A stretch of 64,000 nt of DNA, taken from positions 146,456 through 210,455 of the forward strand of contig NZ_CAMYOM010000001.1 of the NCBI RefSeq assembly GCF_947260015.1. The letters are read 5' to 3'. Shown here in pieces: positions 1-42,055 of the stretch. The position numbers and the translations under genes were made by a program. A model generated the notes under the pieces. It ran no database searches and was not told where the DNA came from. It saw nothing but the letters and a program-made list of their open reading frames with translations. Within the stretch, counting starts at the first letter, position 1. Each line of letters begins with the position of its first letter. The DNA is from an uncultured Eudoraea sp. (GTDB lineage: Bacteria > Bacteroidota > Bacteroidia > Flavobacteriales > Flavobacteriaceae).

Positions 1-1467
1 GTCTCGCTTTATCATCGTCATTACCTCATCGCCAAAATATTTCTGATACGTGTTATCATTTAAACCCGTAAAATCAAAAACTCCTTTAATTATGAAAAGT
101 GTAATTCCGAGTCCCACAACAATAATTAAACTCGTTTTCAAAGCCGTTAGTTTTTTACTCTTTGCTATAGAGGGCTTAAATACTTGTACTAATGCCATTA
201 CTGCGAGGATGGGCGCACAGAGTTCTAAGATTACCTGAATGGAAGAAACCGCTCTGAATTTGTTATAAAGTGGAAAATAGTCAATCATAAAATCGGTAAG
301 AAGACCAAAGTTCTTTCCCCAGGATAAAAAGAGTGAAATTAAAGTTCCTCCTAATAACCACCATTTTAAACGTCCTTTAACTAAAAACAACCCTAAGACA
401 AAAAGAAAAATTATAATTGCACCAATATAAGCCGGTGCTGCTACACCCGGTTGATTTCCCCAATACAATGGAAGAGAACTACTAAATTCCAGAGCCTTTG
501 TTCGTGGTAATCCCTGTTCTGTCAGATATTCATAAGCTTTGGAATTAGTGCCTAGGTCTTCATTATTACTACCTCCAAAAAGTCTGGGAACAAATAAATC
601 CAGAGATTCAGCTATTCCATAACTGTATTGAGTTATGTATTCCTTATCTAGTCCCTCCAAGTTTTCTTTGGCAGACCCGTCCGGGTTTATCGTAAGTTCT
701 GACTTGCCTCTTGTGCTCCAATCCGCATATTCTTTGGTTGCCATAAGGGATGTCGCATTAGCGGTAATCCCCAAAATTACTGCTACAATAAGCAGTCCCA
801 CAGAAATGAAAAAGTGTTTCAGTTTATTTTTTTTAATGGCATCAACTAAATATGCAACTCCGAGCACGAGAATAAGTAACATAAAATAATAGGTCATCTG
901 GAAATGATTTGCCCCTATTTCCAAAGCCATAGCCAGGGATGTAAGGATAAAACCCCAGATGTACTTTTTTCTAAAAGTAAGTATAATACCGCCTAATAGA
1001 ATTGGTAAATACCCTATGGCATGGGCCTTCGCATTGTGCCCTACCCCCAGAATTATAATAAGATAGGTAGAAAAACCAAAAGCTAGTGCACCAAAGATCG
1101 CTAACCCATAATCCACCTTTAAGCAACATAATAATATATAGAATCCAACAAAATACAGGAATAAATAATCTGCCGGACGGGGAAGAAATCGAATAGTTCT
1201 ATCAAGCTTTCTTACATAATCATGCGGATAATAAGCTCCTAATTGATATGTTGGCATCCCCCCAAAAGCACTATTAGTCCAATAGGGCTCCTCATTAGAA
1301 TTTTTCCGAAAATCATTTTGCTCCTTAGCCATTCCGGTATATTGAATAATATCGGACTGGATGATGGTTTTACCCTGAAGTACGGGGTAGAAGTAGGCCA
1401 GAGAGGCAACAATAAAAAAAACAAGCGCAAAAAAATGGAAAAATAAAGCCTTTGTACCTCTATTCAT
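1..1467 (-). CDS. YfhO family membrane protein, N-terminal part (runs off the window)
   Basis: The reading frame opens with ATG at 1467 and stays open for 489 codons to the window edge, so the C-terminus is missing. The product starts with a transmembrane helix (about residues 7-27), has an extracytoplasmic loop, and continues with many hydrophobic helices, as in the large Bacteroidota YfhO-type multi-spanning proteins of roughly 800 residues. Family members resemble glycosyltransferase-type integral membrane proteins; the substrate is unknown. The DUF4834 gene lies 21 bp upstream on the same strand, so the two are probably co-transcribed. The identification rests on overall character and neighbour, not on a catalytic motif, so function stays open. 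Confidence 0.75.
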   Translation of the reverse strand, partial: MNRGTKALFFHFFALVFFIVASLAYFYPVLQGKTIIQSDIIQYTGMAKEQNDFRKNSNEEPYWTNSAFGGMPTYQLGAYYPHDYVRKLDRTIRFLPRPADYLFLYFVGFYILLCCLKVDYGLAIFGALAFGFSTYLIIILGVGHNAKAHAIGYLPILLGGIILTFRKKYIWGFILTSLAMALEIGANHFQMTYYFMLLILVLGVAYLVDAIKKNKLKHFFISVGLLIVAVILGITANATSLMATKEYADWSTRGKSELTINPDGSAKENLEGLDKEYITQYSYGIAESLDLFVPRLFGGSNNEDLGTNSKAYEYLTEQGLPRTKALEFSSSLPLYWGNQPGVAAPAYIGAIIIFLFVLGLFLVKGRLKWWLLGGTLISLFLSWGKNFGLLTDFMIDYFPLYNKFRAVSSIQVILELCAPILAVMALVQVFKPSIAKSKKLTALKTSLIIVVGLGITLFIIKGVFDFTGLNDNTYQKYFGDEVMTMIKRD

Positions 1468-1841: not shown

Positions 1842-2927
1842 ATGTTTCGAGTTATTGAGCTAAAAATTATTAAAAATGCCATTTTTTTATTAGCATTATT
1901 GACCCCTTTATTAGGTATCTGCCAATATACAGATGTAATTAATTCTAACCGACCTGGTTTATCTGTAAGCGCCTATGCAGTGGGAAAAGGAGTCCCTCAG
2001 CTAGAATTGGGATTTTCTTACGAAAAGCGGGACCACGCAGATCTGAATTATGATTCAAATATATACGGCCTGGATTTTTCAGTACGCTATGGCTTGTTAT
2101 TGGAGAATCTAGAGTTAAATTGGGAAGGTACTTATCAAAATCAGATTATCACCTACAATTCCCTCGGATTTATAGAATCAAGAACCAATTTTTCAAGAAA
2201 CCGCCTTGGGGCAAAGTATTTGGTTTTTGATCCATTTAAAAATCCGGAAAGAAACAAGCCAAACTTGTATAGTTGGAAGGCCAACAACAAATTTGAATTT
2301 AAAAATTTAATCCCGGCAATCTCCGTATATGCAGGGGCCAATTTTGTTATTGGCGACAATCCATTTTATCCTGCAGATCCCACAGTTTCTCCGAGGGTTA
2401 TGTTGGCAACTCAAAGCAGGCTTACCCCCAGATTTGTTTTGATCTCCAATATTTCTTATGATAGAATTGCAACGGATGACCCGGAATTGGGCTATACACT
2501 TTCCCTATCTCACGCACTTAGAAATCCTAAATGGAGTATATTTTTGGAAAACCAGGGTGTTAGCAGTGATCGTTATTCAGACATATTGTTAAGAGGTGGT
2601 GGGGCGTATTTGGTGAATGAAAATTTTCAGGTTGATGCGAATCTGGGTGGCAGTTTCAAGAACTCTCCAAGCCGCCTTTTTGTTTCAGTTGGAGCATCAT
2701 ACAGACTAGACTTTCATAAGGATGTCCTGATCCCTATTGAAGATCAGAAGGCTGGTGAAAATGGTGGGCCGATTAAAAAGAATTCTATGAAGAAAAAAAC
2801 AACTAAAGGACGGAAAAAAGGGAAAGGAGCTGAGGATATAGACCTGGGGCCTTCCAAAAAAGATATGAAAAAGCAGAAGAAAGATAAAAAAAAGAAAACT
2901 TCAGATAAAGGAGTAATTGATTTTTAA
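1842..2927 (+). CDS. Outer-membrane beta-barrel (transporter-type) protein with Lys-rich tail
   Basis: The 361-residue product has a signal peptide (hydrophobic core about 12-24, likely cleavage after the CQ at 27-28) followed by alternating amphipathic strands rich in aromatic residues, typical of an outer-membrane barrel. It resembles the Bacteroidota proteins annotated as transporter or putative MetA-pathway of phenol degradation family. After about residue 300 the barrel character stops and a strongly basic tail begins, with repeated KKK runs up to the terminal GVIDF. That tail is unusual for a barrel protein, which normally ends in a C-terminal aromatic strand. It is divergent from DUF4834 and followed by the GNAT-like gene. 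Substrate unknown. Confidence 0.65.
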   Translation: MFRVIELKIIKNAIFLLALLTPLLGICQYTDVINSNRPGLSVSAYAVGKGVPQLELGFSYEKRDHADLNYDSNIYGLDFSVRYGLLLENLELNWEGTYQNQIITYNSLGFIESRTNFSRNRLGAKYLVFDPFKNPERNKPNLYSWKANNKFEFKNLIPAISVYAGANFVIGDNPFYPADPTVSPRVMLATQSRLTPRFVLISNISYDRIATDDPELGYTLSLSHALRNPKWSIFLENQGVSSDRYSDILLRGGGAYLVNENFQVDANLGGSFKNSPSRLFVSVGASYRLDFHKDVLIPIEDQKAGENGGPIKKNSMKKKTTKGRKKGKGAEDIDLGPSKKDMKKQKKDKKKKTSDKGVIDF

Positions 2928-28334: not shown

Positions 28335-29402
28335 TCAGCTTTTTATTAAAGACAAACTTTTGTCCCTTATAATCTTTCCATTCGCTGTGTTTTTAAAAGC
28401 TGAGACGTAAAATATTTCTTTTGGTAATTCAAATTTCTCCAAATCAGCTTTGGAAATTATTTCCTGAAGTCCGTCTATTTTTTCACCTTCAACAACTAAA
28501 ATTAACTTCTTTCCCAACTGTGAGTCTGGCAAAGCACTAACAAAAAATCTTGACGGGATAAACGAAGTCAGCTTTTGTTCAATTTGCTCAGGAATTAGTT
28601 TGATACCTCCCGAATTAATAACGTTATCAAATCGTCCCAGCCAAAGGAATTCCTTTTCCGAGATCAATTCTACAATATCATTAGTAATTACAGGGTTATC
28701 GCTAATATTTGGTGCGTTTATTACCAGACATTTTCTGTCGTCCTGGGAAATAGCTATATCCGGTAATATTTTAAATGCTTTATGATCTGACCCGGCATCA
28801 TATTGACTCAATGGCCTGACAGCAACATGGGTAACGGTCTCAGTCATACCATAAGTTTCAAAAATCTTTGTCTTGCTATCGGCAATCAATTTCATTAATT
28901 GGCTAGAAACAGGAGCTCCCCCAACTATGACTGTCTGAAACTGATTTAATTTATTTATTGAAGATTCCAATTGAAGAGGTACCATAGCGCCAAATTTATA
29001 GAACTTGTTTACGCCATCTAAAGGTCTTGAAGTGGGAGCAACAAAATCTAGCTCTAAACCCAGAATCATTGCCCTAACGACCATCATCTTGCCTGCGATG
29101 TATCCTGTAGATAGACATAATAAAACCCTGTCACCGGCTTCTAGCCCGAAATATTCGCCAGTAACCTTGGCAGAGTTTACCATATGTCTTTTTTTTAGTG
29201 CTATCCCCATAGGAGTACCTGTAGAACCTGATGTCCGTATTGTGAGCTCAGGATCGGGTGACAACCAATCTAATAGAAAGTCTCCTATTTCCTTTTCAAA
29301 ATCTTCTCCTTCCTTAATTAAACTATAAGCTACCTCTTTTAACTCCTCATTAGAATAGCCATGACCATTAAGTTTAAATTGTTCGTGTATTTTAACCGCC
29401 AT
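28335..29402 (-). CDS. menE: o-Succinylbenzoate-CoA ligase (AMP-binding, short form)
   Basis: The 355-residue protein is an adenylate-forming enzyme with the ATP motif TSGSTGTP at 57-64, the ETYGMTETVTH motif in the middle and a C-terminal GRFDNVINSGG hinge followed by the small lid domain. It is shorter than typical acyl-CoA ligases, as MenE of Bacteroidota is. It activates o-succinylbenzoate with CoA in menaquinone synthesis. It follows the CPBP gene by 4 bp, and menC is just upstream, so menC-CPBP-menE is one operon. Confidence 0.88.
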   Translation of the reverse strand: MAVKIHEQFKLNGHGYSNEELKEVAYSLIKEGEDFEKEIGDFLLDWLSPDPELTIRTSGSTGTPMGIALKKRHMVNSAKVTGEYFGLEAGDRVLLCLSTGYIAGKMMVVRAMILGLELDFVAPTSRPLDGVNKFYKFGAMVPLQLESSINKLNQFQTVIVGGAPVSSQLMKLIADSKTKIFETYGMTETVTHVAVRPLSQYDAGSDHKAFKILPDIAISQDDRKCLVINAPNISDNPVITNDIVELISEKEFLWLGRFDNVINSGGIKLIPEQIEQKLTSFIPSRFFVSALPDSQLGKKLILVVEGEKIDGLQEIISKADLEKFELPKEIFYVSAFKNTANGKIIRDKSLSLIKS

Positions 29403-29406
29403 CTAA

Positions 29407-30354
29407 TTAAATTTTAAGTGTATCATGTAAATCTCCGGGGGGTAAAACTTTTCCGGTTAGGCGTTCCTTCCAATTGGTCCACCCGTACTTTTTGGATAAA
29501 ATAAGAAGCATAATAGGATAAACAATAAAAACAGGGGCAAAAACCTCCAAACCAATTTCAGGTTCAGAAATATCCCTATATACAGAATTAGTTTGGAAAG
29601 CGGTCCAATCTGCAGAAACTAAAAGTGCGGCCGTTAAATTATTTGCGGCATGAAAACCCAGGGCCAATTCTAAACCTTCATCCATAAGGGTAAGAATACC
29701 TAAAAACAGTCCGGTCCCAATATAAAAAACCATTACACCATATCCTATTTTAGCCACTTCCGGATTAAATATATGTAACAATCCAAAAATTAGAGAGGTA
29801 CCAAGTAGTGGTGCCCATCTATTTTTAGCGGCAATACCCAGTCCTTGCATTAAATAACCTCGAATAAAATACTCTTCAAAACTGGTTTGAACAGGAATAA
29901 AAATAATAGCGATAAAAAGTAATACTAAAAATGGACCTGGCCGAAAATTATACAAATAGTCATCTGGATATAAAAAGATATCCAACCCTATGAATATCAC
30001 TGAAATTACAGCCCAGAGGACAAATGTAAAAGCTACCCTTTTCCAATCTATTTTTTTTCTGGATGTAGTTAAGGAAAGGAAGCTTTGTTGATGTAAAAAC
30101 TTTACAGTAAAATAAAGGGTCAGAAATCCTATAACAAATGTCAACAGCATAAGAAAAAGAAACAGATTAGAACCCAATAAATTGGAAATACCGGGTATGT
30201 CTGTTGGGAAATCTCTTGACTCCATTGCCTTCACAAATAGAGCTAAAACCAAGGGTACCGAGCCAATAAATTGCCAACCCATGAAAATAATTAATACTCC
30301 CACGGCATACCTCCATAGTTCATGCAAACCTTTATAACCTTGTTCTATATACAT
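29407..30354 (-). CDS. CPBP family intramembrane metalloprotease
   Basis: The 315-residue protein has about eight hydrophobic helices and the CPBP (CAAX/Abi) motifs: EEYFIRGY with EExxxR, FGLLHIF with a His, and GFHAANN with a second His-Asn. The family includes glutamic/metal-type intramembrane proteases and membrane proteins of unclear function. Its start overlaps the end of menC by 10 bp and it is followed at once by menE. That placement suggests co-expression with menaquinone enzymes, though a direct role in the pathway is not implied by the sequence. Confidence 0.85.
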   Translation of the reverse strand: MYIEQGYKGLHELWRYAVGVLIIFMGWQFIGSVPLVLALFVKAMESRDFPTDIPGISNLLGSNLFLFLMLLTFVIGFLTLYFTVKFLHQQSFLSLTTSRKKIDWKRVAFTFVLWAVISVIFIGLDIFLYPDDYLYNFRPGPFLVLLFIAIIFIPVQTSFEEYFIRGYLMQGLGIAAKNRWAPLLGTSLIFGLLHIFNPEVAKIGYGVMVFYIGTGLFLGILTLMDEGLELALGFHAANNLTAALLVSADWTAFQTNSVYRDISEPEIGLEVFAPVFIVYPIMLLILSKKYGWTNWKERLTGKVLPPGDLHDTLKI

Positions 30355-31397
30355 AACTTGTTTATTATATTCTGTTCCCAGTTCAAATTGTTGTTGTAGT
30401 TTAATTTTCCTTTTTGTATTTCGAGTGGGCTATCAAAATTATTAGTAAATAAAGTCCCGGTACCTAATCCCTGGGTCATTTTGTTATTTAGAATATACGT
30501 CCACTGCGCAATGGCGTTAAGGCCAATATTACTTTCCAATGCGCTGGTAACCCACCAGCCTATGCCCAATTTTGTGGCTATATCAATCCATTCCTTGCAG
30601 GCCTTAAACCCGCCCAAAAGGCTTGGTTTTAAAATTATATAGTGTGGCATAATGGTTTGTAGCATAGTTTCCTTTTCCGTTACAGTATGATGGCCAATTA
30701 ATTCCTCATCAAGAGCTATTGGCAGTGGTGAACTTTCACATAGATGCTTCATTTCCATGGAAAATCCTTGTTGAATAGGCTGTTCAATAGAATGTATATC
30801 GCAGGCTGCTAATTTAATGAGTTTATTCAAGGCCTCATCCACTTTAAATGCCCCATTGGCATCTACCCGAAGTTCTATTTCTTCTTTGCCATACTTCTTT
30901 CTCAGTGAAGTCAATAGCGATAATTCCTTATTAAAATCAATTGCCCCTATTTTAATTTTAACACAACTGAATCCCAAACGTATTTTTTCAGTTATTTGAT
31001 CTTGCATGAATTCTTCATCACCCATCCAAATCAAGCCATTAATATCAATGGCTGCTTTAGATTTGGTAAATGCAGAAGGAAAAAGCACAAAGGGGTTTTC
31101 AGATGCCAGAGAAGTGAAAGCCTGTTCCACTCCAAACCTGATGCTTGGATATTCCTTTAAATCTTCTAAAAGTCTTTCTTTACCCAAATGAATATGTGCG
31201 CAGGTCCAGGAAATTTTGTCTTCATATTCAGGTACATCATCAATACTCAGGCCTCTGAACAATCCGCATTCTCCAATGCCGGATTTTCCTTTATCCTTCA
31301 GAACTAAAAACCAGGTTTCTTTTTGCTTCAGTATGCCCCTCGACGTACCACTTGGTCTTTTAAAGTTCAAATTGTATTTCTTGTAAAAAGCGTCCAT
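30345..31397 (-). CDS. menC: o-Succinylbenzoate synthase (enolase superfamily)
   Basis: From ATG 31397 the product has about 350 residues. It carries the enolase-superfamily signature residues of the OSBS/muconate-lactonizing group: the Lys pair in CVKIKIG, the metal ligands in RVDANGAF, SIEQPIQ and ALDEELIG, and the second catalytic Lys in ILKPSLLGG. It dehydrates SHCHC to o-succinylbenzoate in menaquinone synthesis. An upstream in-frame start at 31430 is less likely. A dipeptide epimerase would be the alternative, but the adjacent menE supports MenC. Confidence 0.88.
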   Translation of the reverse strand: MDAFYKKYNLNFKRPSGTSRGILKQKETWFLVLKDKGKSGIGECGLFRGLSIDDVPEYEDKISWTCAHIHLGKERLLEDLKEYPSIRFGVEQAFTSLASENPFVLFPSAFTKSKAAIDINGLIWMGDEEFMQDQITEKIRLGFSCVKIKIGAIDFNKELSLLTSLRKKYGKEEIELRVDANGAFKVDEALNKLIKLAACDIHSIEQPIQQGFSMEMKHLCESSPLPIALDEELIGHHTVTEKETMLQTIMPHYIILKPSLLGGFKACKEWIDIATKLGIGWWVTSALESNIGLNAIAQWTYILNNKMTQGLGTGTLFTNNFDSPLEIQKGKLNYNNNLNWEQNIINKLCI

Positions 31398-31445
31398 ATG
31401 AATTGGTGCTAAATTTAACAATATTTTCAATCTAAAAATTAGAGA

Positions 31446-32349: not shown

Positions 32350-34308
32350 TTATTTAAAATTGAACCAAAAACGAACACCATCTGTATTTTTATCAATATT
32401 TAATGTAGATTGTAATTGATTTACCAAGCGCTTCATTAAACGAATCCCCATAGATGAATTGGCCCTTTCTTCAGATTCTTCATCGAGTCCTATACCATTA
32501 TCAGTATATTCAAAAAATCCCTGGTCGCCATTTTTTCTAAGGTGGATATATATTTTACCATTTTCATCATCCTCGGGAAATGCATATTTAAAAGAATTGG
32601 ATACCAGCTCATTTAGTATTAATCCAAAGGGTATGGCCCTGTCAATGTCCAATTCAACCCCTTCAGCATCAATAGTTATATTAATGCTATGTCCACCTTT
32701 TTTGAATACAGATTGTACACTATTTACCAAGCTTTCTATATAACCCTGCATTTCAATTACAGATAAGTCATCATTTTGATACAACTTCTGATGTATCAAA
32801 GCCATAGCCTTTACCCTGCTCTTACCTTCCTCAAGAGCTTCAATAGCCGCTTTACTTCGCGTATTTTTGGTTTGTAAACTCAGAAGGCTCGATACCATTT
32901 GCAGGTTATTTTTAACGCGATGATGGATTTCTTTAAGTAAAGAATCTTTTTCCACCAGAGAAGTTTCAATTATATGCTTCTGTTGAGCAATCAGACGTTG
33001 ATTCTTAATACTTTTTAAATAAGCATAAACTAATCCTGCAAAACCCAAAAGTGTAAAAATCAAAGAAATAAAAACCAGGTTTATTTGCTCATCCTTAGCC
33101 TGCATTTCATTTCGTGCACGTTCCATTTCCAGCTTTTGTGCATCTATCATTCGCTTCGAATTCTCAATTTCATATTTTGCAACTGTAGAAAGTTGCTGTT
33201 TTTTAAGTGAGGAGTCATTGATATTAATAGAATCGGCAATCCTTACATTTTTCTTCAAGTAAATACTTGCATTTTTATAATCCTCAATCTTGTCGTAATA
33301 TGCAGCCAGTAATCTATTATTCTTAATAATATGTTCTATCTTAATGGGATTGAGAGGTTCATTTAAAATATCCTTTGCTTTTTGAAAATTTTCTAGTTGC
33401 AGGTGACAATCTGCAAGAGCCAAACTATTTTCAATCACATCTTCAGAATACTGACCGATATTATTTTCCTTTATTAAACCTATACTGTTTTCCAAATAGG
33501 GTAATGCCTCTTCAAATTGTTTTAGTTGCAAATAAGACTTTCCAATATTACCTTCAATAATGCCTTTTAATAATTTGGCATCCTGTAATTCTTTCTCCGT
33601 CTTCACCTGGGTGACATCATTTAAATATACGTCTATATAACCCTTAGCTTTTTTAAAATTACTTAACGCAACCGAGGAAGATTTGTCCAGAAGTAAATAC
33701 CGACCTACATTATTATTGTATTCTGAAAGACCGTAGAGATCACTGTTATCAATAGTCTTTTTCATATCCATGATGTAATCTTCCATGGCTTTTCTATGCA
33801 AACCCAGATTGGAATAAATATCATAAAATGTGATATTCTCGGAGAAACCTAAATCTCTTTTCTCCTGTCTGATCTCAACCTGCTTTCCATACAGTTGTAA
33901 TTGGGAATAGTTATTATCTATTAGATCTAACATAAACCTCTTTGTCTTCAGATCGAGTTTATCTTTCACTAAATACAGGTCATTAGCTATAGCCACACTT
34001 TTATCGTAGTCTCCCAAATCATAATAAATTTGAGATTGCATGAGCTTATAGTCATTTATGGCCGCAGAATCTCCAGACTTCTCTGCGGAGTTTAGATAAA
34101 GTTTAACCTCATCCAACCAATCATAGGCGGAGTTTTCATTATATCGGTGTAGTGTATTGAAAAAATAATCAAACCTATCCCCAACACTTCGCTTATCCTT
34201 GAATACATCCAATGCATTTTCATCCAAGGTATCTAAAACCTGCGCTCCGACACTTTGAACTAAAGAAAGAAAAAATATTATTAAAATTTTACCCAGCGAT
34301 TTTGCCAT
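32350..34308 (-). CDS. TPR-containing sensor histidine kinase (HisKA_2 type)
   Basis: The 652-residue protein has a signal peptide (1-22), a long helical TPR-rich region (about 45-360), a coiled coil (365-408), one transmembrane helix (about 411-431) and a cytoplasmic kinase. The dimerisation box is EIHHRVKNNLQM with the phospho-acceptor His463 (or 462). The ATPase domain has the N box NELVSNSFKY and G box DNGIGL. The TPRs are periplasmic by topology, so the signal is probably a protein or peptide ligand. The LytTR response regulator is encoded upstream on the same strand, separated by a 745-bp gap without ORFs. A tandem direct-repeat site of LytTR type plus a TAnnTTTR box lies about 75-140 bp upstream, suggesting that the regulator controls this kinase. 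Confidence 0.9.
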   Translation of the reverse strand: MAKSLGKILIIFFLSLVQSVGAQVLDTLDENALDVFKDKRSVGDRFDYFFNTLHRYNENSAYDWLDEVKLYLNSAEKSGDSAAINDYKLMQSQIYYDLGDYDKSVAIANDLYLVKDKLDLKTKRFMLDLIDNNYSQLQLYGKQVEIRQEKRDLGFSENITFYDIYSNLGLHRKAMEDYIMDMKKTIDNSDLYGLSEYNNNVGRYLLLDKSSSVALSNFKKAKGYIDVYLNDVTQVKTEKELQDAKLLKGIIEGNIGKSYLQLKQFEEALPYLENSIGLIKENNIGQYSEDVIENSLALADCHLQLENFQKAKDILNEPLNPIKIEHIIKNNRLLAAYYDKIEDYKNASIYLKKNVRIADSININDSSLKKQQLSTVAKYEIENSKRMIDAQKLEMERARNEMQAKDEQINLVFISLIFTLLGFAGLVYAYLKSIKNQRLIAQQKHIIETSLVEKDSLLKEIHHRVKNNLQMVSSLLSLQTKNTRSKAAIEALEEGKSRVKAMALIHQKLYQNDDLSVIEMQGYIESLVNSVQSVFKKGGHSINITIDAEGVELDIDRAIPFGLILNELVSNSFKYAFPEDDENGKIYIHLRKNGDQGFFEYTDNGIGLDEESEERANSSMGIRLMKRLVNQLQSTLNIDKNTDGVRFWFNFK

Positions 34309-34384
34309 AACATGCTAAGGGATATTTGCTAATTACTATTTTGATCTGATTATAATTATTAAGTTAAATACCGTAAAAACAATT

Positions 34385-34448
34385 TAAACTTACTATTAAT
34401 TAGCCTAGTGTTTAAATTTTTGTTGTAAAGTAGAATGAAACTGTTGTC
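34385..34448 (-). promoter_or_regulatory. Candidate LytTR site and promoter of the sensor kinase (copy 1)
   Basis: On the plus strand TGTTGT occurs at 34421 and 34442, exactly 21 bp apart. On the minus strand the repeats are followed by 28 bp and then TAAGTTTA (34392-34385), close to the Bacteroidota -7 box TAnnTTTG. A start near 34379 would give a leader of about 70 nt before the kinase ATG at 34308. No TTG is seen at the -33 position, which fits an activator-dependent promoter. Confidence 0.6.
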
Positions 34449-34576
34449 TACAAGGGCTCTTAGCAAAACTTAAGTCTCGTAACCGTAAATTCTCATCCAT
34501 CCTTTTAATACCAAAACACCTTCAATTTTCCGTATGTAATTCTACTAATCATCCCAACAAAATACCTGGATAAACT

Positions 34577-34651
34577 AAAAAAGACTATACACAAAGCATA
34601 GCCTTTTAAACTGTGATATATAAATGATAAGATTTGGGGTGCTGTATTAGC
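34577..34651 (-). ncRNA. Candidate LytTR-controlled small RNA B
   Basis: The stretch follows a tandem-repeat site and a perfect -7 box (TAAATTTG, 34663-34656) and ends in a 12-pair hairpin with a T-run, predicting a transcript of about 75 nt. There is no ATG-initiated reading frame in it. It shares with RNA A the order TCATTT, then ATATA, then an AAAAG-flanked terminator hairpin, which suggests that the two are tandem paralogues. Confidence 0.5.
34579..34607 (-). terminator. Terminator hairpin of candidate small RNA B
   Basis: On the minus strand AAAAGGCTATGC pairs with GTATAGTCTTTT (12 pairs including two G-U) around a 5-nt loop and is followed by further T. The G-U pairs work only on the minus strand, which sets the orientation. 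Confidence 0.7.
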
Positions 34652-34655
34652 GATT

Positions 34656-34719
34656 CAAATTTATTACCTTGAAACTTAGCATTCGGGATTTTGTTGTGTA
34701 AGTGCATATTTATGTTGTG
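34656..34719 (-). promoter_or_regulatory. Candidate LytTR site and promoter of small RNA B (copy 2)
   Basis: TGTTGTG occurs on the plus strand at 34692 and 34713, exactly 21 bp apart. Then, on the minus strand, come 28 bp and TAAATTTG (34663-34656), a perfect TAnnTTTG box. The total span is 64 bp, identical to the other two copies. No TTG at -33. Confidence 0.65.
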
Positions 34720-34829
34720 AAATAGCATTTTACAGTCATTAATTGCATTTCAACCGATTTTTTAGCCTTTCATGGAGACTTAAATTCAGGTAGATTAGAA
34801 ATCCGGTTCAATTCAAAATGGTTATAATC

Positions 34830-34908
34830 AAAAAGAGCCCTGCCAACTAAGACAAGACTCTTTTACGAGAACACTATATGAAAATGAAAAAAATTATTCG
34901 ATTAATTA
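34830..34908 (-). ncRNA. Candidate LytTR-controlled small RNA A
   Basis: The stretch follows a tandem-repeat site and a near-consensus -7 box (TACTTTGG, 34921-34914) and ends in a 12-pair terminator hairpin, predicting a transcript of about 78 nt. It contains no meaningful ORF. It lies downstream of the LytTR regulator gene, with its own promoter, and resembles small RNA B in layout and in part of its sequence. Confidence 0.5.
34831..34864 (-). terminator. Terminator hairpin of candidate small RNA A
   Basis: On the minus strand AAAAGAGTCTTG pairs with CAGGGCTCTTTT (12 pairs including two G-U) around a 10-nt loop, followed by one more T and an AT-rich stretch. It could also stop read-through from the response regulator gene. 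Confidence 0.7.
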
Positions 34909-34913
34909 CATAG

Positions 34914-34977
34914 CCAAAGTATTCCAATTCTTTAATAGGGAAAAATAAATGTTGTGAAGTAGTTGAAATGTGTTGTG
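34914..34977 (-). promoter_or_regulatory. Candidate LytTR site and promoter of small RNA A (copy 3)
   Basis: TGTTGTG occurs on the plus strand at 34950 and 34971, exactly 21 bp apart. On the minus strand 28 bp and TACTTTGG (34921-34914) follow. The box is one mismatch from TAnnTTTG but at the same distance as in the other two copies. No TTG at -33. Confidence 0.6.
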
Positions 34978-35053: not shown

Positions 35054-35806
35054 CTATGAGTTCATGGCAGAAATAATAAACTCTTTAAAATCCTTCGAAA
35101 TCGGGATCAGGGTATTATTTATCATAATATCCTTTGAGTTAATAGCATCTATATGATCTACGTTTACGATATAAGATTTATGCGCTCTGTAGAATTTATT
35201 TTTAGGTAATTTCCCTAAATAATCTTTTAAGGGAGATCTTACTAGAAATTTCTTGTCAATTGTATTCACTTCCAGGTAAACATTATCTGCCTTTATAAAC
35301 TGAATATCTCCAAACTGAATACGATAATAAAGGTGCTGCTTTTTGACAAAAATAGAATCTTTGAGAACAGAATTGGATACTACTCTTTCTTCATCTTCTG
35401 GATGTTCCTGTCCTCCTTCTTTCGTTGAGTAATCAAAATTTGAAAGTGCAATCTCGATAGAAGTATATAGATCCTGTTGTTCAAATGGTTTTACCAGGTA
35501 ACCATTAGGTTTAACTGTCTTAGCGTTCTCCACAGTAGCCCTATCTGAGTTGGACGTTACAAATATGAAGGGAATATTGTATTTCTCTCTTATATGCTTT
35601 CCTAAATCAATTCCCGTTTTGTCGGATGCTAAAATGATATCAATAAGCACCAGGTCTACATGATTATTTTTTAAAACCTCTTCAGCCTGTTCGTAAACAA
35701 TAACATTGTCTACAATTTCATATCCTATTTCCTCCAACATCGATTGCATGTCGTCTGCAATAATCACGTTATCTTCTACAATAAGAATCTTTATAGCTTG
35801 TTCCAA
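35054..35806 (-). CDS. LytTR family response regulator
   Basis: The 250-residue protein has a CheY-like receiver (about 5-125) with acidic pocket Glu11/Asp12, phospho-acceptor Asp56 in VLIDIIL, switch Thr/Ser in FVTSN and Lys in YLVKPF. An acidic linker follows, then a LytTR DNA-binding domain (about 150-250, with FYRAHKSYIVNVDHI). LytTR domains bind two direct repeats about 21-22 bp apart. Three such candidate sites lie just downstream, between this gene and the sensor kinase. It is 37 bp downstream of menA and may partly be transcribed with it. Confidence 0.93.
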   Translation of the reverse strand: MEQAIKILIVEDNVIIADDMQSMLEEIGYEIVDNVIVYEQAEEVLKNNHVDLVLIDIILASDKTGIDLGKHIREKYNIPFIFVTSNSDRATVENAKTVKPNGYLVKPFEQQDLYTSIEIALSNFDYSTKEGGQEHPEDEERVVSNSVLKDSIFVKKQHLYYRIQFGDIQFIKADNVYLEVNTIDKKFLVRSPLKDYLGKLPKNKFYRAHKSYIVNVDHIDAINSKDIMINNTLIPISKDFKEFIISAMNS

Positions 35807-35843: not shown

Positions 35844-36752
35844 TTACAAAAAATAATTATACTCTATATAAAACAAGAATCCCAACAGAAAAGTACTCAA
35901 TGCCACTTTTTTTAATTCTGGATCAAAATTCCGAGGATTTTCTATTTTGCTTACTAGTCTTAAATGAATAAAAAGAGGTAAAAATGCGATCAGGCATATT
36001 CCACTTTTCCATGAATAGTAATGATTCGCTACAAAAGTTAACATACTAATGAATGCCAAAATGATCAAGGTGTAATGGTAAACTTTCCCTTTAGAAAGTC
36101 CTATTTTGACAATTACCGTATTCTTATTAGCATTTTTATCCGATCTTATATCTCTTAAGTTGTTCAAATTAAGTACTGCTGTACTTAGAAATCCTATAGA
36201 AGCGGCAGGAAGTAAGGCCATAGATGTTAAAAACTTTGTATACAAAAACATAGAACCCAGAACACTCAACAGTCCAAAAAATGAGAAAACAAAAAGGTCA
36301 CCAAATCCTTTATAACCATATGCATTGCTCCCAACTGTATATTTAATGGCGGCCCAAATACTGGCCATTCCAAGTATTACAAATAAAACCACATACTTTA
36401 AATGTTCTTCTTCAAAAGCAAAGTACAAAAGCAAGAAGACCAGGAATAAATCTATAACAACAGATATACGAATACCTGTGTTTAACTCCTTTTTAGACAG
36501 TTGGCCACTTTGATAAGCTCGCTTAGGTCCTATTCTATCTTCATTGTCTGTGCCTTTTACTCCATCTCCATAATCATTTGCAAAATTCGATGTTACCTGA
36601 AAAGCCACTGTAGTTAACAAAGCAAGAATAAAAATATGTAAATCCCAATAACCGTAAATATTGGCCAAAGCTGTACCTACTAATATGCCTGACAATGATA
36701 AGGGAAGAGTTCTTAAGCGGGCTGCATTTAGCCAAGCTCTAAATTTGATCAC
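35844..36752 (-). CDS. menA: 1,4-dihydroxy-2-naphthoate polyprenyltransferase
   Basis: The 302-residue integral membrane protein of the UbiA superfamily has the prenyl-diphosphate/Mg motif NDYGDGVKGTD in the first half and a second Asp-rich motif NLRDIRSDKNANK in the second half, with about eight transmembrane helices. It prenylates DHNA to demethylmenaquinone. The start codon is GTG (36752-36750) and overlaps the stop of the upstream SPOR gene by one base, so translation is coupled. Confidence 0.92.
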   Translation of the reverse strand: MIKFRAWLNAARLRTLPLSLSGILVGTALANIYGYWDLHIFILALLTTVAFQVTSNFANDYGDGVKGTDNEDRIGPKRAYQSGQLSKKELNTGIRISVVIDLFLVFLLLYFAFEEEHLKYVVLFVILGMASIWAAIKYTVGSNAYGYKGFGDLFVFSFFGLLSVLGSMFLYTKFLTSMALLPAASIGFLSTAVLNLNNLRDIRSDKNANKNTVIVKIGLSKGKVYHYTLIILAFISMLTFVANHYYSWKSGICLIAFLPLFIHLRLVSKIENPRNFDPELKKVALSTFLLGFLFYIEYNYFL

Positions 36753-37348
36753 TAATAAGGATCTTCAATTTTTATTCGTTTTCCATCCTGATAAGAAGCC
36801 ACGAATGCATCATCGAAACCCATTTTGACCAATTGATATCTGAATGACCTGGCTTCTTCCAATGTTTCAAAATTCCCCAGGGAATAAGAATAAAAAGGGT
36901 TGGTTTTGACGAACATGGTATTTGTTAATGATTCTGAGGACAGGGTAAGATTATTATCAACAAAGGATTTTACCTGAACAGAATATATCTTTTCTTTTTC
37001 TAAAAACATCTTAGCCAGATAAAATTCTTTTACCAAACTCAGCTCTTCATTCTGTTGCTGAAGATTATCTATTCTGGTTTTTACAGCGTCCAAACTATCA
37101 ATTGAAACCAATAAATTTTGATTGTCATAGGTATTAGAACTGCTAAGCCCACTGATATATGAAGTAAATGCAATAGTTCCAATTAAAAAAATTGTAGTTA
37201 CACCGGCAAGAATATTTCTTTGAACCTTACTCCTTTTTAATTCTTTATTTTTATATTTTATTTGATCTAACAAGCGTTCATTAATAATCTGTGCTTTGTC
37301 AATGTCTTTATGTAATTCTAATAAATCGCTTTCTTCAATAAATGGCAT
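36752..37348 (-). CDS. SPOR-like domain membrane protein
   Basis: The 198-residue protein has a charged cytoplasmic N-terminus (coiled coil about 10-42), one transmembrane helix (46-66), a short coiled linker and a C-terminal SPOR-like domain (about 120-195; YSVQVKSF and YSLGNFETLEEARSFRYQLV). SPOR domains bind denuded peptidoglycan strands, often at division sites; a periplasmic envelope role is likely. It is coupled to menA by a one-base stop/start overlap. It sits where a menB gene would be expected in a Bacteroidota men cluster. Confidence 0.8.
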   Translation of the reverse strand: MPFIEESDLLELHKDIDKAQIINERLLDQIKYKNKELKRSKVQRNILAGVTTIFLIGTIAFTSYISGLSSSNTYDNQNLLVSIDSLDAVKTRIDNLQQQNEELSLVKEFYLAKMFLEKEKIYSVQVKSFVDNNLTLSSESLTNTMFVKTNPFYSYSLGNFETLEEARSFRYQLVKMGFDDAFVASYQDGKRIKIEDPY

Positions 37349-37501
37349 TTGATATTTAATTTAGGGGGTCAACGGTTAAATTTAAGTAAAAAGCTTATTA
37401 TCAACAAAATAAATAAGCTTATTTAGCAAAAATAGCCGATTTATGGGTAGAACTAAATACCTAACTAGCATTTTTTTAAAACTATTGGAAAGTTATCCGA
37501 T

Positions 37502-38332
37502 TCACACTCTATATATTCCGTCGTCTTTTATTTCAATTTTTCGATCTCTGTAAAGGGATCCTATGGCTTTTTTGAAAGCTTTTTTGCTCATCTGAAACAT
37601 CTGCTGTATTTCCTCCGGCGCTGATTTATCATGAAGTGAAATATATCCGCCTGCCAATTCTAACTTCTCATAGATCTGCTTGGCTGCAGGTTCAAGTGCC
37701 AAATGGCCAATGGGCTTTAAAACAATATCAACTTTATTATCCTCACGAATTTTCTTTACATACCCCTTTAAGGTTGCTCCTACTTTAATGGGTTGAAACA
37801 CTTCACTCTTAAAAACAAGCCCCTGGTATTTATTATCTATAATGACGTCCCAACCTAATTCAGATTGCCGGCTTACCAATAGATCTACCTCATCCTTCGG
37901 GCTTAGTGATATATCTTCATTTTTCGCGAATTTATTCAATCTGGATGAAGCTACTAATCTGAAAGTCTTTTCATCTAGGTAACAAAAAACTACATACGAT
38001 TCTCCTTCATTCATTTTTGTCTGCTGTTCCCTAAATGGTACGAGCAAATGCTTTTCCAATCCCCAATCCAAAAAAGCCCCAAATTGGTTTACCTCGGCCA
38101 CCCTCAGCCATCCAAAATTATTCCTTTTAATTAGTGGTTTAAGGGTTGTCGCAATAGGCCGTTCTTCATGATCCAGGTAACAAAATACACTTATATCATC
38201 TCCTATATTAAACTCTTCAGGAATATATTTTAAAGGAAGTAACAAATCATCCACGTCATCGTCGCCCAGAAATAGTCCTACAGCTGTTTCTCTTAGAATT
38301 TTTAACGTATTATAATTTCCTAATTCTATCAT
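37502..38332 (-). CDS. CvfB-type S1 RNA-binding protein
   Basis: The 276-residue protein shows two or three S1/OB segments (about 1-65, 70-130 and 145-205, for example FGWLRVAEVNQFGAFLDWGL) and a C-terminal winged-helix segment (KKAFKKAIGSLYRDRKIEI), as in CvfB. CvfB of Firmicutes affects virulence and binds RNA; the function in Bacteroidota is not established. A terminator lies upstream, between it and DUF2853, so it starts a new unit running toward the SPOR gene and menA. Confidence 0.88.
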   Translation of the reverse strand: MIELGNYNTLKILRETAVGLFLGDDDVDDLLLPLKYIPEEFNIGDDISVFCYLDHEERPIATTLKPLIKRNNFGWLRVAEVNQFGAFLDWGLEKHLLVPFREQQTKMNEGESYVVFCYLDEKTFRLVASSRLNKFAKNEDISLSPKDEVDLLVSRQSELGWDVIIDNKYQGLVFKSEVFQPIKVGATLKGYVKKIREDNKVDIVLKPIGHLALEPAAKQIYEKLELAGGYISLHDKSAPEEIQQMFQMSKKAFKKAIGSLYRDRKIEIKDDGIYRV

Positions 38333-38363
38333 GAAGTCGTTCTATGTAAAAAGGTATAAAAAA

Positions 38364-38386
38364 AGCCGTTCATTTGAAGAACGGCT
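38364..38386 (-). terminator. Terminator after the DUF2853 gene
   Basis: AGCCGTTC / GAACGGCT is a perfect 8-bp stem with a 7-nt loop, followed on the minus strand by seven T. It lies 11 bp past the DUF2853 stop codon. Confidence 0.85.
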
Positions 38387-38397
38387 AATTTAATGTT

Positions 38398-38742
38398 CTA
38401 ATTATAAATAGATTCTTTTTTAAAGTGCTTTGCCAATATATAATATACTACCGCACGATGTTTGTTTCTCTCAGAAGTCCCATATGTGTTAATTACACTT
38501 TTGATACCTTCCATTAGTTGAGGACCATCTGTTAGTCCTAATTTTTTTAGTAAAAAATTTTTCTTTACTGTTTCCAGTTCAGAACCGTCTGTTCCTGACA
38601 CTTTGGACGCATCCATATTATAGATAGCAGGACCCAGACCAATAGCTACTTTTGTAAGCAGATCCATATCCGGGGTTTGACCAAATTTACCTTTGATATC
38701 AGCAGCGTACTGCTGAATGAGATCGTCTCTTCTACTGCTCAT
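38398..38742 (-). CDS. DUF2853 family protein
   Basis: The 114-residue, mostly helical protein starts MSSRRDDLIQQYAADIKGKFG and contains DMDLLTKVAIGLGPAIYN, as in the DUF2853 family of small cytosolic proteins of unknown function. It follows menD by 33 bp and is closed by a terminator, so the menF-menD transcript probably ends after it. Confidence 0.8.
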   Translation of the reverse strand: MSSRRDDLIQQYAADIKGKFGQTPDMDLLTKVAIGLGPAIYNMDASKVSGTDGSELETVKKNFLLKKLGLTDGPQLMEGIKSVINTYGTSERNKHRAVVYYILAKHFKKESIYN

Positions 38743-38775
38743 AGTGTTAGTGTTTTTATACGATTTAATAATATT

Positions 38776-40533
38776 CTAAGATATGAAATCAAAATAAGTA
38801 AGCAAAATTTTATCGTTTAATAATCGGGGTGTTTTTACCTCTAAAAGCACTGGCGATTTGGAAGGCAAATAAAAAGTTGACAAGGCAGTATCTAAGGTTT
38901 TTTTGTCTACAGCTTCCAAATGATTTAAATTAAATAGCGAGCAAAGTCTTTGCAATTCTAAATCTTGCACAGTCTCAAAGTAGGTCTCAAAATTATGAGA
39001 ATTTTCCATCCCTGGCAAGATTCTGAAAATGCCGCCACCACCATTATTTATTACTACTATTCTTAAATCGTTGCGCTTATATGAATTCCAAAGACCATTA
39101 CTGTCATAGAAGAAACTCAGATCTCCGGTTATCAGTAAGGTAGGATCCACTGAATGAATTGACGAACCAATTGCGGTAGAAGTGCTTCCGTCAATGCCAC
39201 TTGTCCCTCTATTACAATATACGCTCAGTGAAGGGTCCAAATCAAATAACTGTGCGTATCTGACAGTTGAGCTATTTGCCAGATGTAGCTGATAGTTTTG
39301 AGGAATATTTGAACAAATAGTTTGAAAAGCTAAAAAATCTGTGAATGGAATTTCATCTAAATAAGTTTTCCTTCTACTCAGATATTTTAGTTTTACTTTA
39401 TTCCATATGCCGTAATAATTACTTTGTAGCTCAAACCTCTTTCCTAAAATGTTTTCAAAGAAATTATTTTCATTCGTTTTTATATGCTTTGAAAGACTAA
39501 AAAATGTATCGTAGGCTTTTTTATTATTTATATGCCAATGATGTTTTGGCTTATATTCTCTGAGAAATGCTTTTATCTTTTTGGAAACTATCAGGCCTCC
39601 CATTGTTATTAATAGTTCGGGCTGTAATTCCTTAGAAAATAATTCTCTTTTCTGTGATTTTTCAATCGGTGCAATTATACTGTCAATGCTTGGGAAAAAA
39701 TTTTGATGATGCACATTTGAAGTAACTTCTGTAAAAACAATTATTGAATCATCATTCGCAAGGATATTTAAATAATCAACATTAATATTATCCGGATTAT
39801 TTACGCCAATAATGAGCATTTTCTTTTCACACGAATTCCATATTCGGGCAAGATCATCCCAATTGATCTCCTCACTACTATTCTCCAAAATTATAGGAGT
39901 ACAAAATGGAGCTAGCTTCATATCTTCCACGGCGTCATATAAAGGCTCCTCAAAAGGTATGTTTATGTGCACGGGGCTGTCTTGGATAATTGCCGATTTT
40001 AAAGCATTATTTAACTCAGCATCATTAAAACTTTGTATTTGAGATTGCAATTGCTCTAAGCTATAATCTTTTGCAAACAAGTTGGGATCAAACTTCTCTA
40101 CTGTATTGGTAGCATGGGAGATATCTTGTTTTAAATTGGCTGAATAACCAATATGCTTTTCAAATAATGATTCCTGTCTTATGGTCTGACCATCCCCAAT
40201 ATCGACTTTATAAGCAGGTCTATCTGCAGAAATAACAATAAGAGGTATATCACTGTAAAAAGCTTCTGCCACCGCAGGGTAATAATTTAAAAGTGCACTT
40301 CCGGATGTACAAACGGCTATCACAGGCTTTTGTAAGTGTTGCGCCATGCCTAAGGCGAAAAATGCTGCGCTACGTTCGTCTACAATGCTATAACAAGAAA
40401 AATATGGGTCATTAGTAAAACCAACGGTTAATGGAGCATTCCTTGAACCCGGGGAGATTACAACGTTCTTTATTCCCCTTGACTTACAATGGAAAACAAC
40501 CGATTGAGCCGAAGGAATACTAGAATATTTCAT
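38776..40533 (-). CDS. menD: SEPHCHC synthase (2-succinyl-5-enolpyruvyl-6-hydroxy-3-cyclohexene-1-carboxylate synthase)
   Basis: The 585-residue ThDP-dependent enzyme (from ATG 40533; an upstream TTG at 40572 is unlikely) shows the MenD features: ISPGSRNAPL, the VDERSAAFFALGMA Glu segment that activates ThDP, GTSGIDGSTSTAIG and the ThDP/Mg motif GDLSFFYDSNGLW. It joins isochorismate and 2-oxoglutarate. It follows the isochorismate synthase gene by 48 bp. Confidence 0.94.
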   Translation of the reverse strand: MKYSSIPSAQSVVFHCKSRGIKNVVISPGSRNAPLTVGFTNDPYFSCYSIVDERSAAFFALGMAQHLQKPVIAVCTSGSALLNYYPAVAEAFYSDIPLIVISADRPAYKVDIGDGQTIRQESLFEKHIGYSANLKQDISHATNTVEKFDPNLFAKDYSLEQLQSQIQSFNDAELNNALKSAIIQDSPVHINIPFEEPLYDAVEDMKLAPFCTPIILENSSEEINWDDLARIWNSCEKKMLIIGVNNPDNINVDYLNILANDDSIIVFTEVTSNVHHQNFFPSIDSIIAPIEKSQKRELFSKELQPELLITMGGLIVSKKIKAFLREYKPKHHWHINNKKAYDTFFSLSKHIKTNENNFFENILGKRFELQSNYYGIWNKVKLKYLSRRKTYLDEIPFTDFLAFQTICSNIPQNYQLHLANSSTVRYAQLFDLDPSLSVYCNRGTSGIDGSTSTAIGSSIHSVDPTLLITGDLSFFYDSNGLWNSYKRNDLRIVVINNGGGGIFRILPGMENSHNFETYFETVQDLELQRLCSLFNLNHLEAVDKKTLDTALSTFYLPSKSPVLLEVKTPRLLNDKILLTYFDFIS

Positions 40534-40581
40534 AGGCACACAAAAATACGACGGAACAATGTGTAAATCCAATCGATTGAC

Positions 40582-41631
40582 TTAATTAAATATCATATTT
40601 AGCATGGTTTCGCTTTTATGAACTGTTTCCATCCACTCTTGTTGAGCGTTGGAACCGGATGTTATTCCACCACCAATATAAAGGAAGGCCGAATCATCTT
40701 TTATCTGCATACATCGAAGGTTAACAAAGAAATGTGAGGTTTTGTCATTATCAATATTTAGTTCTCCTAAAAATCCGGAGTAAAATTCCCGGTCATAATT
40801 CTCGTTCCTTATGATAAATGCTTCTGCCTCAATAACAGGAAAGCCGCAAATAGCTGGTGTGGGATGTAATGCCTGAATTATGCTTTTTAGTTCCAAATCG
40901 CCAACTGTTCCCCAAATTTTAGTTCTTAGATGCCATAAATTCCCTGCCCTAACGGAATTTACTTTTCCAATTGACAAATCGGGGACATAAGTCCTGAGTT
41001 CTTGAACTATGTGTTGGGTAACCATATCCTGCTCCTCCATTTCTTTTTTACCCCATGAAGGTTTATCCGTGGTTGTACTCTTTTTGGTGCCCGCAAGAGA
41101 CATAGTCACCAAAGTGGAATTTTGTTTAAGAAAAAGTAATTCGGGTGTAGCTCCTATCCAAAGACCTATTTTTGGATGGTACCAGAAATAACAAAAGGCA
41201 TTTGGATAACTGTCAAGGACTTTTCTAAATATTTGAAGGGGTGAGGAATGTTTGGGTACCACTTTCTTTCTTGACAGCACTACTTTCTTGAACTTATTAT
41301 TCTCAATTTCTTCAATCGCCTTGTTTACAATTTCTATATGGTACTTCCTCCCTTCCTCCGAGATTCCTTCAAAGTTGGGGGTATCAAATTTAAAATTCTT
41401 CATTTGAAATTCATGCGAATAGACTTTATCCGGACGAATTAGTACAGCAGGAGCCTTCTTATTATAAGGAGCGAAAACGAAGCCTTTCTCAGTAAAATCA
41501 CTTACATGATGCAGAGTCGAATCATCTTGGAAAATTGAAATTACTTCATTGGTATTGGGTTTTCTATAGGCAACAACGGGCAATTCAGTTTTCCAGTGAG
41601 TTTCAATTATGCCAATGTGTTCTAAAAACAT
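40582..41631 (-). CDS. menF: Isochorismate synthase
   Basis: The 349-residue chorismate-binding enzyme has the conserved core of the MenF/EntC/PabB group: VVLSRKK near 125, WIGATPELL, MSLAGT, HPTPAICGFP and the C-terminal IGGGITSGSNAQQEW. The A-G-T and HPTPA motifs favour isochorismate synthase over anthranilate synthase. It is 1 bp downstream of the thioesterase gene and upstream of menD, so the three genes form one operon. Confidence 0.9.
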   Translation of the reverse strand: MFLEHIGIIETHWKTELPVVAYRKPNTNEVISIFQDDSTLHHVSDFTEKGFVFAPYNKKAPAVLIRPDKVYSHEFQMKNFKFDTPNFEGISEEGRKYHIEIVNKAIEEIENNKFKKVVLSRKKVVPKHSSPLQIFRKVLDSYPNAFCYFWYHPKIGLWIGATPELLFLKQNSTLVTMSLAGTKKSTTTDKPSWGKKEMEEQDMVTQHIVQELRTYVPDLSIGKVNSVRAGNLWHLRTKIWGTVGDLELKSIIQALHPTPAICGFPVIEAEAFIIRNENYDREFYSGFLGELNIDNDKTSHFFVNLRCMQIKDDSAFLYIGGGITSGSNAQQEWMETVHKSETMLNMIFN

Positions 41632-41632
41632 A

Positions 41633-42055
41633 CTAGGCTCTTGGTAGGGATATAGTGGTTAACTTACAAATTGAAATTAGATTATCTTCCTTGTCTGTTA
41701 CTCTTATATCCCACAATTGTGTAGTTCTGCCTTTATGGATAATTGTGGCCCTGGCATATACCTCTCCTTCACTTATGCTTCTTATATGATTGGCTGATGT
41801 TTCAATACCACGTACATAAACTTTTTGACCGTCAAGAAATACATAAGAAGCAGCGCTGCCAACACTTTCAGCCAGAGCAACAGTGGCACCGCCATGTAGA
41901 ATACCATCGGGTTGATGAACCTTTGAATTTACCGGCATTTTGGCAACAAGGTAATTTTCACCAACATCAATAAATTCAATTTCCAAGGTTTCCATCAGGG
42001 TATTTTTACAAATATCATTGCAAACCTTTAGTATTTTGTCCTTGTATTCGTTCAT
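41633..42055 (-). CDS. PaaI-type hotdog thioesterase, probable DHNA-CoA thioesterase
   Basis: The 140-residue hotdog-fold protein has the HGGATVALAES motif with His54 and the catalytic Glu63, as in PaaI-type and MenI thioesterases. It begins the menF-menD operon with a 1-bp gap to menF, so its most likely job is hydrolysis of 1,4-dihydroxy-2-naphthoyl-CoA in menaquinone synthesis. A general phenylacetyl-CoA-type thioesterase is the alternative. Confidence 0.82.
   Translation of the reverse strand: MNEYKDKILKVCNDICKNTLMETLEIEFIDVGENYLVAKMPVNSKVHQPDGILHGGATVALAESVGSAASYVFLDGQKVYVRGIETSANHIRSISEGEVYARATIIHKGRTTQLWDIRVTDKEDNLISICKLTTISLPRA

Follow-up and report, generated by a model that had tools for sequence, protein, structure and literature searches.

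VirR of Clostridium perfringens is a regulator of the LytTR type, for which the general half-site consensus is [TA][AC][CA]GTTN[AG][TG]. VirR drives the regulatory RNAs vrr (VR-RNA), virU and virT along with protein genes, and its boxes lie immediately upstream of the -35 element, with both spacing and helical phase critical (PMC2838878). In Clostridioides difficile, the RNA SpoZ is driven by RgaR from repeats 21 bp apart whose key G residues lie at -51 and -72; the authors give RNAIII, VR-RNA, VirT and VirU as parallels to SpoZ (PMC10602386). These precedents make a two-component regulator that drives regulatory RNAs a system of known kind. Among flavobacteria, Rfp sRNAs have been mapped in Flavobacterium psychrophilum and have a TAnnTTTG box at -12 to -5; the term LytTR is absent from the main text of that paper (PMC9723704).

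The locus described here, a sensor-regulator gene pair found in marine flavobacteria, lies in a 64,000-nucleotide stretch of DNA, the window, from a genome of 3.42 Mb. Its regulator has its nearest named relative in an uncultured Eudoraea (99%). The system proposed here shares with VirSR a two-component regulator, paired direct repeats upstream of a promoter, and regulatory RNAs as the products driven. The two differ in that VirSR belongs to the Firmicutes and has another half-site and other RNAs, and in that the accessible text on VirSR describes neither RNAs between the regulator and kinase genes nor an antagonist sRNA family. RgaSR/SpoZ and AgrCA/RNAIII of Staphylococcus aureus are also alike in using direct repeats to activate a small RNA; unlike the present case, those are single RNAs of unrelated sequence, with no sponge layer described in the portions available. 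With the Rfp sRNAs, the RNAs predicted here share a flavobacterial host and the TAnnTTTG box. The FopS paralogous sRNAs of Bacteroides, together with RbpB, are reportedly a multi-copy set acting near start regions, and in this they resemble one family treated below; unlike FopS, as it is said to work, the RNAs here would combine LytTR-type promoter control with pairing to a partner or sponge. In the open-access literature searched, we found no description of these flavobacterial RNAs, of their promoter architecture or of the sponge layer.

Repeat promoters between a response regulator and its kinase

Regulator and kinase genes are both on the minus strand, separated by 745 nt. The features of the gap and its flanks, in window coordinates, are:

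35054..35806, minus strand: response regulator with receiver and LytTR DNA-binding domains, 250 aa (Pfam PF00072, E 2e-20; PF04397, E 8e-17)
34950..34976, minus strand: copy 3, direct repeat ACAACA-N15-ACAACA, putative sRNA1 promoter
34914..34921, minus strand: box TACTTTGG of the putative sRNA1 promoter, 28 nt past the proximal repeat
34745..34775, minus strand: second direct repeat, of the type CSATGAAATGC and with a period of 20 bp, ahead of the putative sRNA2 promoter
34692..34718, minus strand: copy 2, direct repeat, putative sRNA2 promoter
34656..34663, minus strand: box TAAATTTG of the putative sRNA2 promoter
34421..34447, minus strand: copy 1, direct repeat, putative kinase promoter
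34385..34392, minus strand: box TAAGTTTA of the putative kinase promoter
34309..34380, minus strand: predicted kinase mRNA leader, about 72 nt, deduced from where the box and the ORF start lie
32350..34308, minus strand: TPR / HisKA_2 histidine kinase, 652 aa (Pfam PF07568, E 4e-27; TPR_12; HATPase_c)

The genes around the pair resemble those for menaquinone biosynthesis: on both sides (28335-31430 and 35844-42055, minus strand) lie what we take to be menE-, menC-, menA-, menD- and menF-like genes, the presumed menA-like gene ending 37 nt before the regulator start.

The first-pass annotation of this DNA had proposed three identical 64-bp promoters of LytTR type in the gap. Exact matches to TGTTGT-N15-TGTTGT, a period of 21 bp, do occur at 34421, 34692 and 34950, all inside the gap, and the window contains no other match at up to one mismatch. 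Whole-window shuffles average 0.36 matches and never reach three (0/100), in agreement with the annotation's view that such a triplet is unlikely by chance. Read on the gene strand, each copy has the form ACAACA-N15-ACAACA-N28-TAnnTTTG-like, with the box (TAAGTTTA, TAAATTTG, TACTTTGG) starting exactly 28 nt past the proximal repeat in 3/3 copies, as the annotation had it. The word identical does not survive, since the copies differ outside the repeats and box. On reading the sequence, none of the three has a TTG at -33, also as first described, and none is among the output of a sigma-70-type promoter scan, which seeks another consensus. With TAnnTTTG taken as -12 to -5, the placement given for Rfp, the repeats fall at about -67/-62 and -46/-41. 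The arrangement resembles that of a LytTR-activated promoter in that two direct repeats, at the period typical of LytTR sites (about 21-22 bp), closely precede a weak promoter at a constant distance, and a LytTR-domain regulator gene ends at 35054, 77 bp from copy 3, the nearest.

For a comparison across relatives, we fetched 80 loci (L020-L099) whose regulators are 88-99% identical to this one. In 72 the kinase is found downstream; the eight others comprise seven from Arenibacter and one, L045, on a contig that ends early. The 72 gaps plus the window contain 84 exact ACAACA-N15-ACAACA pairs on the gene strand; the opposite strand has zero, and any other N from 5 to 40 yields at most two pairs. 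A TA..TT box stands at the constant offset in 83 of the 84. The consensus is TTTCACAACA-N9-CTTCACAACA-N28-TAnnTTTG. Exact pairs are present in 62/72 loci. The first-pass annotation had staked its reading on the geometry being kept by relatives that keep the gene pair, a prediction that is borne out: with up to two repeat mismatches tolerated at least one promoter of exact geometry is found in 70/72 loci (one in ten loci, two in 36, three in 24), less than 200 nt from the kinase start in 39/72; in L088 and L096 the gene pair is kept and no promoter is found at that tolerance. Neither these counts nor those of the family sample that follows are probabilities, because related genomes are not independent. 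In an unselected sample of 60 family genomes, with both spacings left free (63 combinations), 9 of 13 matches have exactly the spacings (15,28); a reversed-pattern control in the same genomes gives 3 matches.

Short motifs do recur in AT-rich intergenic DNA, and not every exact pair is a promoter. The genome of the window has 14 exact pairs, ten of which include four from a repeated coding stretch and others without a box. Four on C2 were dropped as belonging to one repeated coding-like stretch, those at C2:58638 and C15:34296 were set aside on reading, and the C24 pair and the C29:28909 pair lack a box at the 28-bp offset. Against the shuffles, the strand bias, the fixed spacing and the conservation, chance as the source of the repeats in the gap is vanishingly improbable, and conservation in the 72 loci plus the window rules it out.

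Whether the neighboring regulator is the one that binds is a separate matter. By eye, on both strands, the half-site TTTCACAACA / TGTTGTGAA does not fit the general LytTR consensus, and a LytTR paralogue may therefore be the binder. The seven Arenibacter loci (L072, L074, L083, L084, L090, L095, L099) keep the regulator at 88-89% identity, with no kinase found downstream. Within the stretches fetched, and at up to one repeat mismatch, six of them lack such a promoter and L083 has one poor match. Both observations favor the view that the promoters and RNAs are real and answer to another controller, either a paralogue of the LytTR type or some unrelated protein that binds direct repeats, with the neighboring response regulator acting elsewhere. 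We judge this unlikely: the position of the promoter between regulator and kinase in 70/72 loci, and close to the kinase start in more than half, is what autoregulation would look like, and a 21-bp direct repeat above a weak promoter is also the site geometry of RgaR and VirR. The annotation's claim that the regulator drives these promoters, one of them for its partner kinase, thus gains from the conserved geometry and the LytTR domain, and is weakened by a half-site off the consensus.

Two predicted small RNAs and a putative start-codon target

The first-pass annotation saw the promoters as a feature of the gap and named the kinase as a product. Copy 1 does face the kinase. What was missed is that copies 2 and 3 each head a predicted small RNA with a terminator, and that further predicted RNAs of the genome stand behind a promoter of this type. 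The predicted RNAs of the gap are:

34830..34909, minus strand: predicted sRNA1, about 80 nt with putative ends; 5' core and terminator-like hairpin (34830-34864)
34869..34886, minus strand: core of sRNA1, CATTTTCATATAGTGTTC, the complement of a CAP lipoprotein mRNA start
34572..34651, minus strand: predicted sRNA2, about 80 nt with putative ends; terminator-like stem-loop (34579-34607)
34628..34638, minus strand: sRNA2 core CCCAAATCTTA, complementary to the C10 sRNAs described below

Downstream of copy 3, a strong hairpin is followed by a T-run (fold z -4.3); a simple terminator scan does not pick it up. In an alignment of 56 sequences out of 109 copies of sRNA1, 14 pairs make up the terminator stem, and double compensatory changes are seen in 10; the constancy of the core in this alignment is partly selection, because copies were collected by core. 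The core, as the pattern TTCATTTT[TC]ATAT?AGTGTTC, is found in 56/72 gaps and missing from 16/72. When 50 of the 80 regulator-bearing genomes were searched for its 16-mer, 49 had it, at 135 places in all, and a reversed control had none. We read 77 of the 135 places, using an antisense ORF longer than 60 aa to split off mRNA starts. Sixty-seven are of sRNA type, and every one (67/67) has the promoter upstream, 89-110 nt before the core, scoring 13-16 of 16 as the best within a stretch of 140-150 nt. The ten mRNA starts have promoter scores of 7-10. Searched across the order, the 20-mer core occurs in 10/296 genomes, which represent nine genera of a single family. An antisense peptide ('MKMKK...') was considered as a product and rejected, as the antisense ORFs of sRNA-type copies run from 6 to 52 codons and differ.

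All three promoters face the kinase, so that one might do away with small RNAs altogether and read the gap as three tandem promoters feeding the kinase mRNA, with the leader hairpins as attenuators; in Flagellimonas-type gaps (e.g. L059) the last promoter does lead to the kinase with no hairpin-T-run seen between. sRNA1, however, stands with promoter and hairpin at unlinked sites. A second copy in the same genome, at C6:71334, has both alike, and in a Cellulophaga relative (L220, G027:C7:73300-75300) five tandem copies about 225 nt apart each have their own repeat promoter. A gap without small RNAs is accordingly very unlikely.

A candidate target for sRNA1 is found in the genome of the window at C7:53489, where the lipoprotein mRNA start GAACACTATATGAAAATG is perfectly complementary to the sRNA1 core. 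The protein has a CAP domain (PF00188, E 4e-14), and an orthologue is found in 40/40 genomes searched. The start was compared in 23 of 30 fetched loci, those in which the protein match begins at residue 1. With G-U allowed, all 18 positions of the core pair in 13/23, and at least 15 positions pair in 22/23; among 663 control starts the maximum is 15 positions, reached by one. Fifteen distinct CAP starts show 42 base changes, 21 that keep pairing through G-U and 21 that break it. The duplex of sRNA1 with the CAP start has a predicted energy of -29.7 kcal/mol, and 0/300 dinucleotide shuffles are as low. A conserved seed facing a conserved mRNA site, as expected of a trans-acting sRNA, is thus found for sRNA1 at the CAP starts. 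CCTACTT or a close form stands just upstream of the CAP start in 19/23.

For sRNA2, a stem-loop and T-run lie downstream of copy 2 (one site in the terminator scan against 0.3 expected), and the fold of the whole RNA is unremarkable (z -1.6). A hairpin-T-run and a promoter-like box, the predicted equivalents of a rho-independent terminator and an own promoter, accompany sRNA1, sRNA2 and C10. A repeat promoter with an exact copy of the 11-mer CCCAAATCTTA behind it is present in 30/73 gaps, and with up to two mismatches the 11-mer stands behind 45 promoters, two of them kinase-side. The next two positions beside the selected 11-mer, which face G in C10, carry C or T in 42/45 and 39/45, consistent with a demand for G-C or G-U pairing with C10. 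In Flagellimonas-type gaps the promoter is kept and the CCCAAATC core is absent. Above the presumed sRNA2 promoter, the second direct repeat has a best spacing of 20 in 42/71 sequences and 21 in 10/71 (at most six mismatches in total), as compared with 0/71 shuffled stretches.

The C10 family and leaders that carry its complement

The reverse complement of the sRNA2 core was found in four units of an array on contig C10, itself designated C10 here, whose flanking genes we take to be purF-like and Fe-SOD-like. This array and a second group of RNAs behind the repeat promoter are:

C10:68412-69139 in the genome of the window, 1910-2640 in L142, minus strand: C10 array of four tandem units of about 75 nt, each CCATAGCATAAGTAGGTTAAGTTCATGGTAAGATTTGGGG plus terminator
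C9 in the genome of the window, 4380-5020 in L015, minus strand: two tandem RNAs beside an hflX-like gene (C9-type), each with repeat promoter and strong terminator

A model built from the four units (R1) matches 48/50 regulator-bearing genomes at E 0.1, the weak ones among these 48 being G006 and G015 (best E 0.01-0.03) and G022 (0.009). At E 1e-5 it finds C10 in 45/60 family genomes, one per genus. In a further 35 genomes, clear matches occur in 12 of the 17 from the family, plus one weak; the weak match, in G196, and matches in 4 of the 18 genomes outside the family (E 1e-5 to 6e-4) do not keep the core and were rejected as chance-like. All six genomes of the genus g61, which may be Flavobacterium, have C10; unlike the genome studied here, the g61 genomes sampled lack the exact sRNA1 core. 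C10 is older, and broader in distribution, than sRNA1. Ninety-seven copies from 30 loci, collected by similarity to the C10 sequence, are nearly constant over 40 nt; they form three types, told apart by position 24 and by the end of the 42 nt compared, and alike elsewhere. In the predicted fold AAGTAGG occupies a hairpin loop and GGTAAGATTTGGGG is mostly unpaired. Rfam at its gathering threshold has no match in eight loci, C10 included, and the window gap yields three sub-threshold matches only, so that membership in a known RNA family was set aside.

Upstream of the first C10 unit, the second repeat recurs in inverse orientation (L142, about 2650-2745, minus strand), with a best spacing of 20 in 24/30; the shuffled control applies to the sRNA2 side. 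Some common regulator may control both RNA partners, sRNA2 and C10.

In 40 of the 50 regulator-bearing genomes we searched for the half-promoter, that is the proximal repeat, 28 nt and TAnnTTT, followed by CCCAAATC within 8-38 nt. There are 90 matches (45 forward, 45 reverse) in 38/40 genomes, and 0 to the reversed pattern; some of the 90 look like coding accidents (L272). Thirty loci were read and comprise sRNA2, C9-type RNAs and protein leaders. Six of eight C9-type RNAs examined have two copies of CCCAAATC, and six of eight have CTACTT. Of 15 leaders with an ATG near CCCAAATC, 12 have CTACTT following. For the 15, CCCAAATC being the selection criterion, the predicted energies of pairing with C10 run from -26 to -35 kcal/mol; shuffles are as low in 0/100 for 14 of them and in 1/100 for one. 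Two of the leader-bearing proteins, of 106-107 aa, have a T9SS type A sorting domain (TIGR04183).

The predicted energy of C10 paired with sRNA2, with the C49 unit or with any of three C9 segments lies between -22 and -37 kcal/mol, and in each case 0/300 dinucleotide shuffles are as low. Whole transcripts against mononucleotide shuffles give weaker results: moderate for sRNA2 (-33.6 vs -22.8, sd 4.2, lowest -41.0), -40.1 vs -26.5 for C9_1 (sd 3.6, lowest -38.4), and weak for C9_2 (-35.7 vs -28.9, sd 3.5, lowest -39.7). For the whole sRNA1 transcript no pairing with C10 is predicted, which is the expected outcome (-16.8 vs -24.1 shuffled). Mimicry of another sRNA's target sites, as expected of a sponge, is thus seen for sRNA2, the C9-type RNAs and C49, less strongly with whole transcripts.

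Two side observations belong here. The C49 unit, CCCAAATCTTATCAAACTAAACCTACTTAAAGC plus terminator, is RNA-like (C49:9786 in the genome of the window; L140, about 590-660, minus strand) and contains the longest C10 complement seen (-37.1 kcal/mol); repeats are not clearly visible in its promoter. Two paralogous sigma-70-family genes (ECF-like, from Pfam on one; L145, 2455-3036 and 3612-4193, minus strand; C1 in the genome of the window) both stand behind a weaker repeat promoter, with three mismatches and the box offset right.

Complementarity carries no direction, and C10 is the older and broader partner. Since CCCAAATC recurs in both leaders and RNAs, the RNAs might pair with the sponge reversed or absent, C10 limiting sRNA2 and its relatives, or CCCAAATC might be a shared protein-binding or stability element. 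This is unlikely. A protein site would need no CTACTT, a second C10 complement that often accompanies CCCAAATC in the leaders and C9-type RNAs, nor does it need the changes beside the sRNA2 11-mer to preserve G-C or G-U pairing. sRNA2 looks as if built to soak up the older C10 RNA.

A proposed RNA-against-RNA switch

We consider it probable, from promoter geometry, conserved cores, hairpins, complementarity and the linkage of promoter to CCCAAATC in the sequence, that the LytTR regulator switches on its kinase, one sRNA that pairs with an mRNA, and RNAs that act as sponges and so free the mRNAs of surface proteins from repression by C10. The response regulator, or a close paralogue, would bind ACAACA-N15-ACAACA and thereby activate weak promoters with a TAnnTTTG box and no TTG at -33. 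Up to three transcripts would leave the gap: sRNA1, sRNA2 and the kinase mRNA, the last providing positive feedback. sRNA1 would pair over the start codon of the CAP lipoprotein and block its translation. sRNA2 and other RNAs on the same promoter, such as the pair beside the hflX-like gene, would mimic leaders with CCCAAATC, often joined by CTACTT, and would titrate the multi-copy C10 RNAs, in which a constant stretch of 40 nt complements those leaders. The promoter also precedes some of the mRNAs that bear leaders of this kind, among them one for a small T9SS-sorted protein; a regulator that transcribes an mRNA and also removes its repressor would therefore form a coherent feed-forward arrangement. 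More tentatively, and with the balance tipped slightly against it, C10 may be a family-wide repressor of envelope and surface mRNAs at their start codons, commanded from outside by a narrower two-component system through one promoter type that serves an independent repressor sRNA, several sponges against C10 and some of the C10-repressed mRNAs.

Post-transcriptional control in the Bacteroidota is little known. The rigid spacing of the promoter motif makes it searchable in any flavobacterial genome, the predicted sRNA families have near-constant cores and lack an entry in Rfam, and the start-codon targets predicted here are conserved from genus to genus. The findings suggest that RNAs are the main means by which a two-component system of LytTR type acts in these bacteria, in parallel with clostridia and staphylococci, but the RNAs are unrelated and a sponge layer is added. 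If the proposal is true, an RNA-against-RNA coherent feed-forward switch would be built into the gap between the regulator and kinase genes of the system itself.
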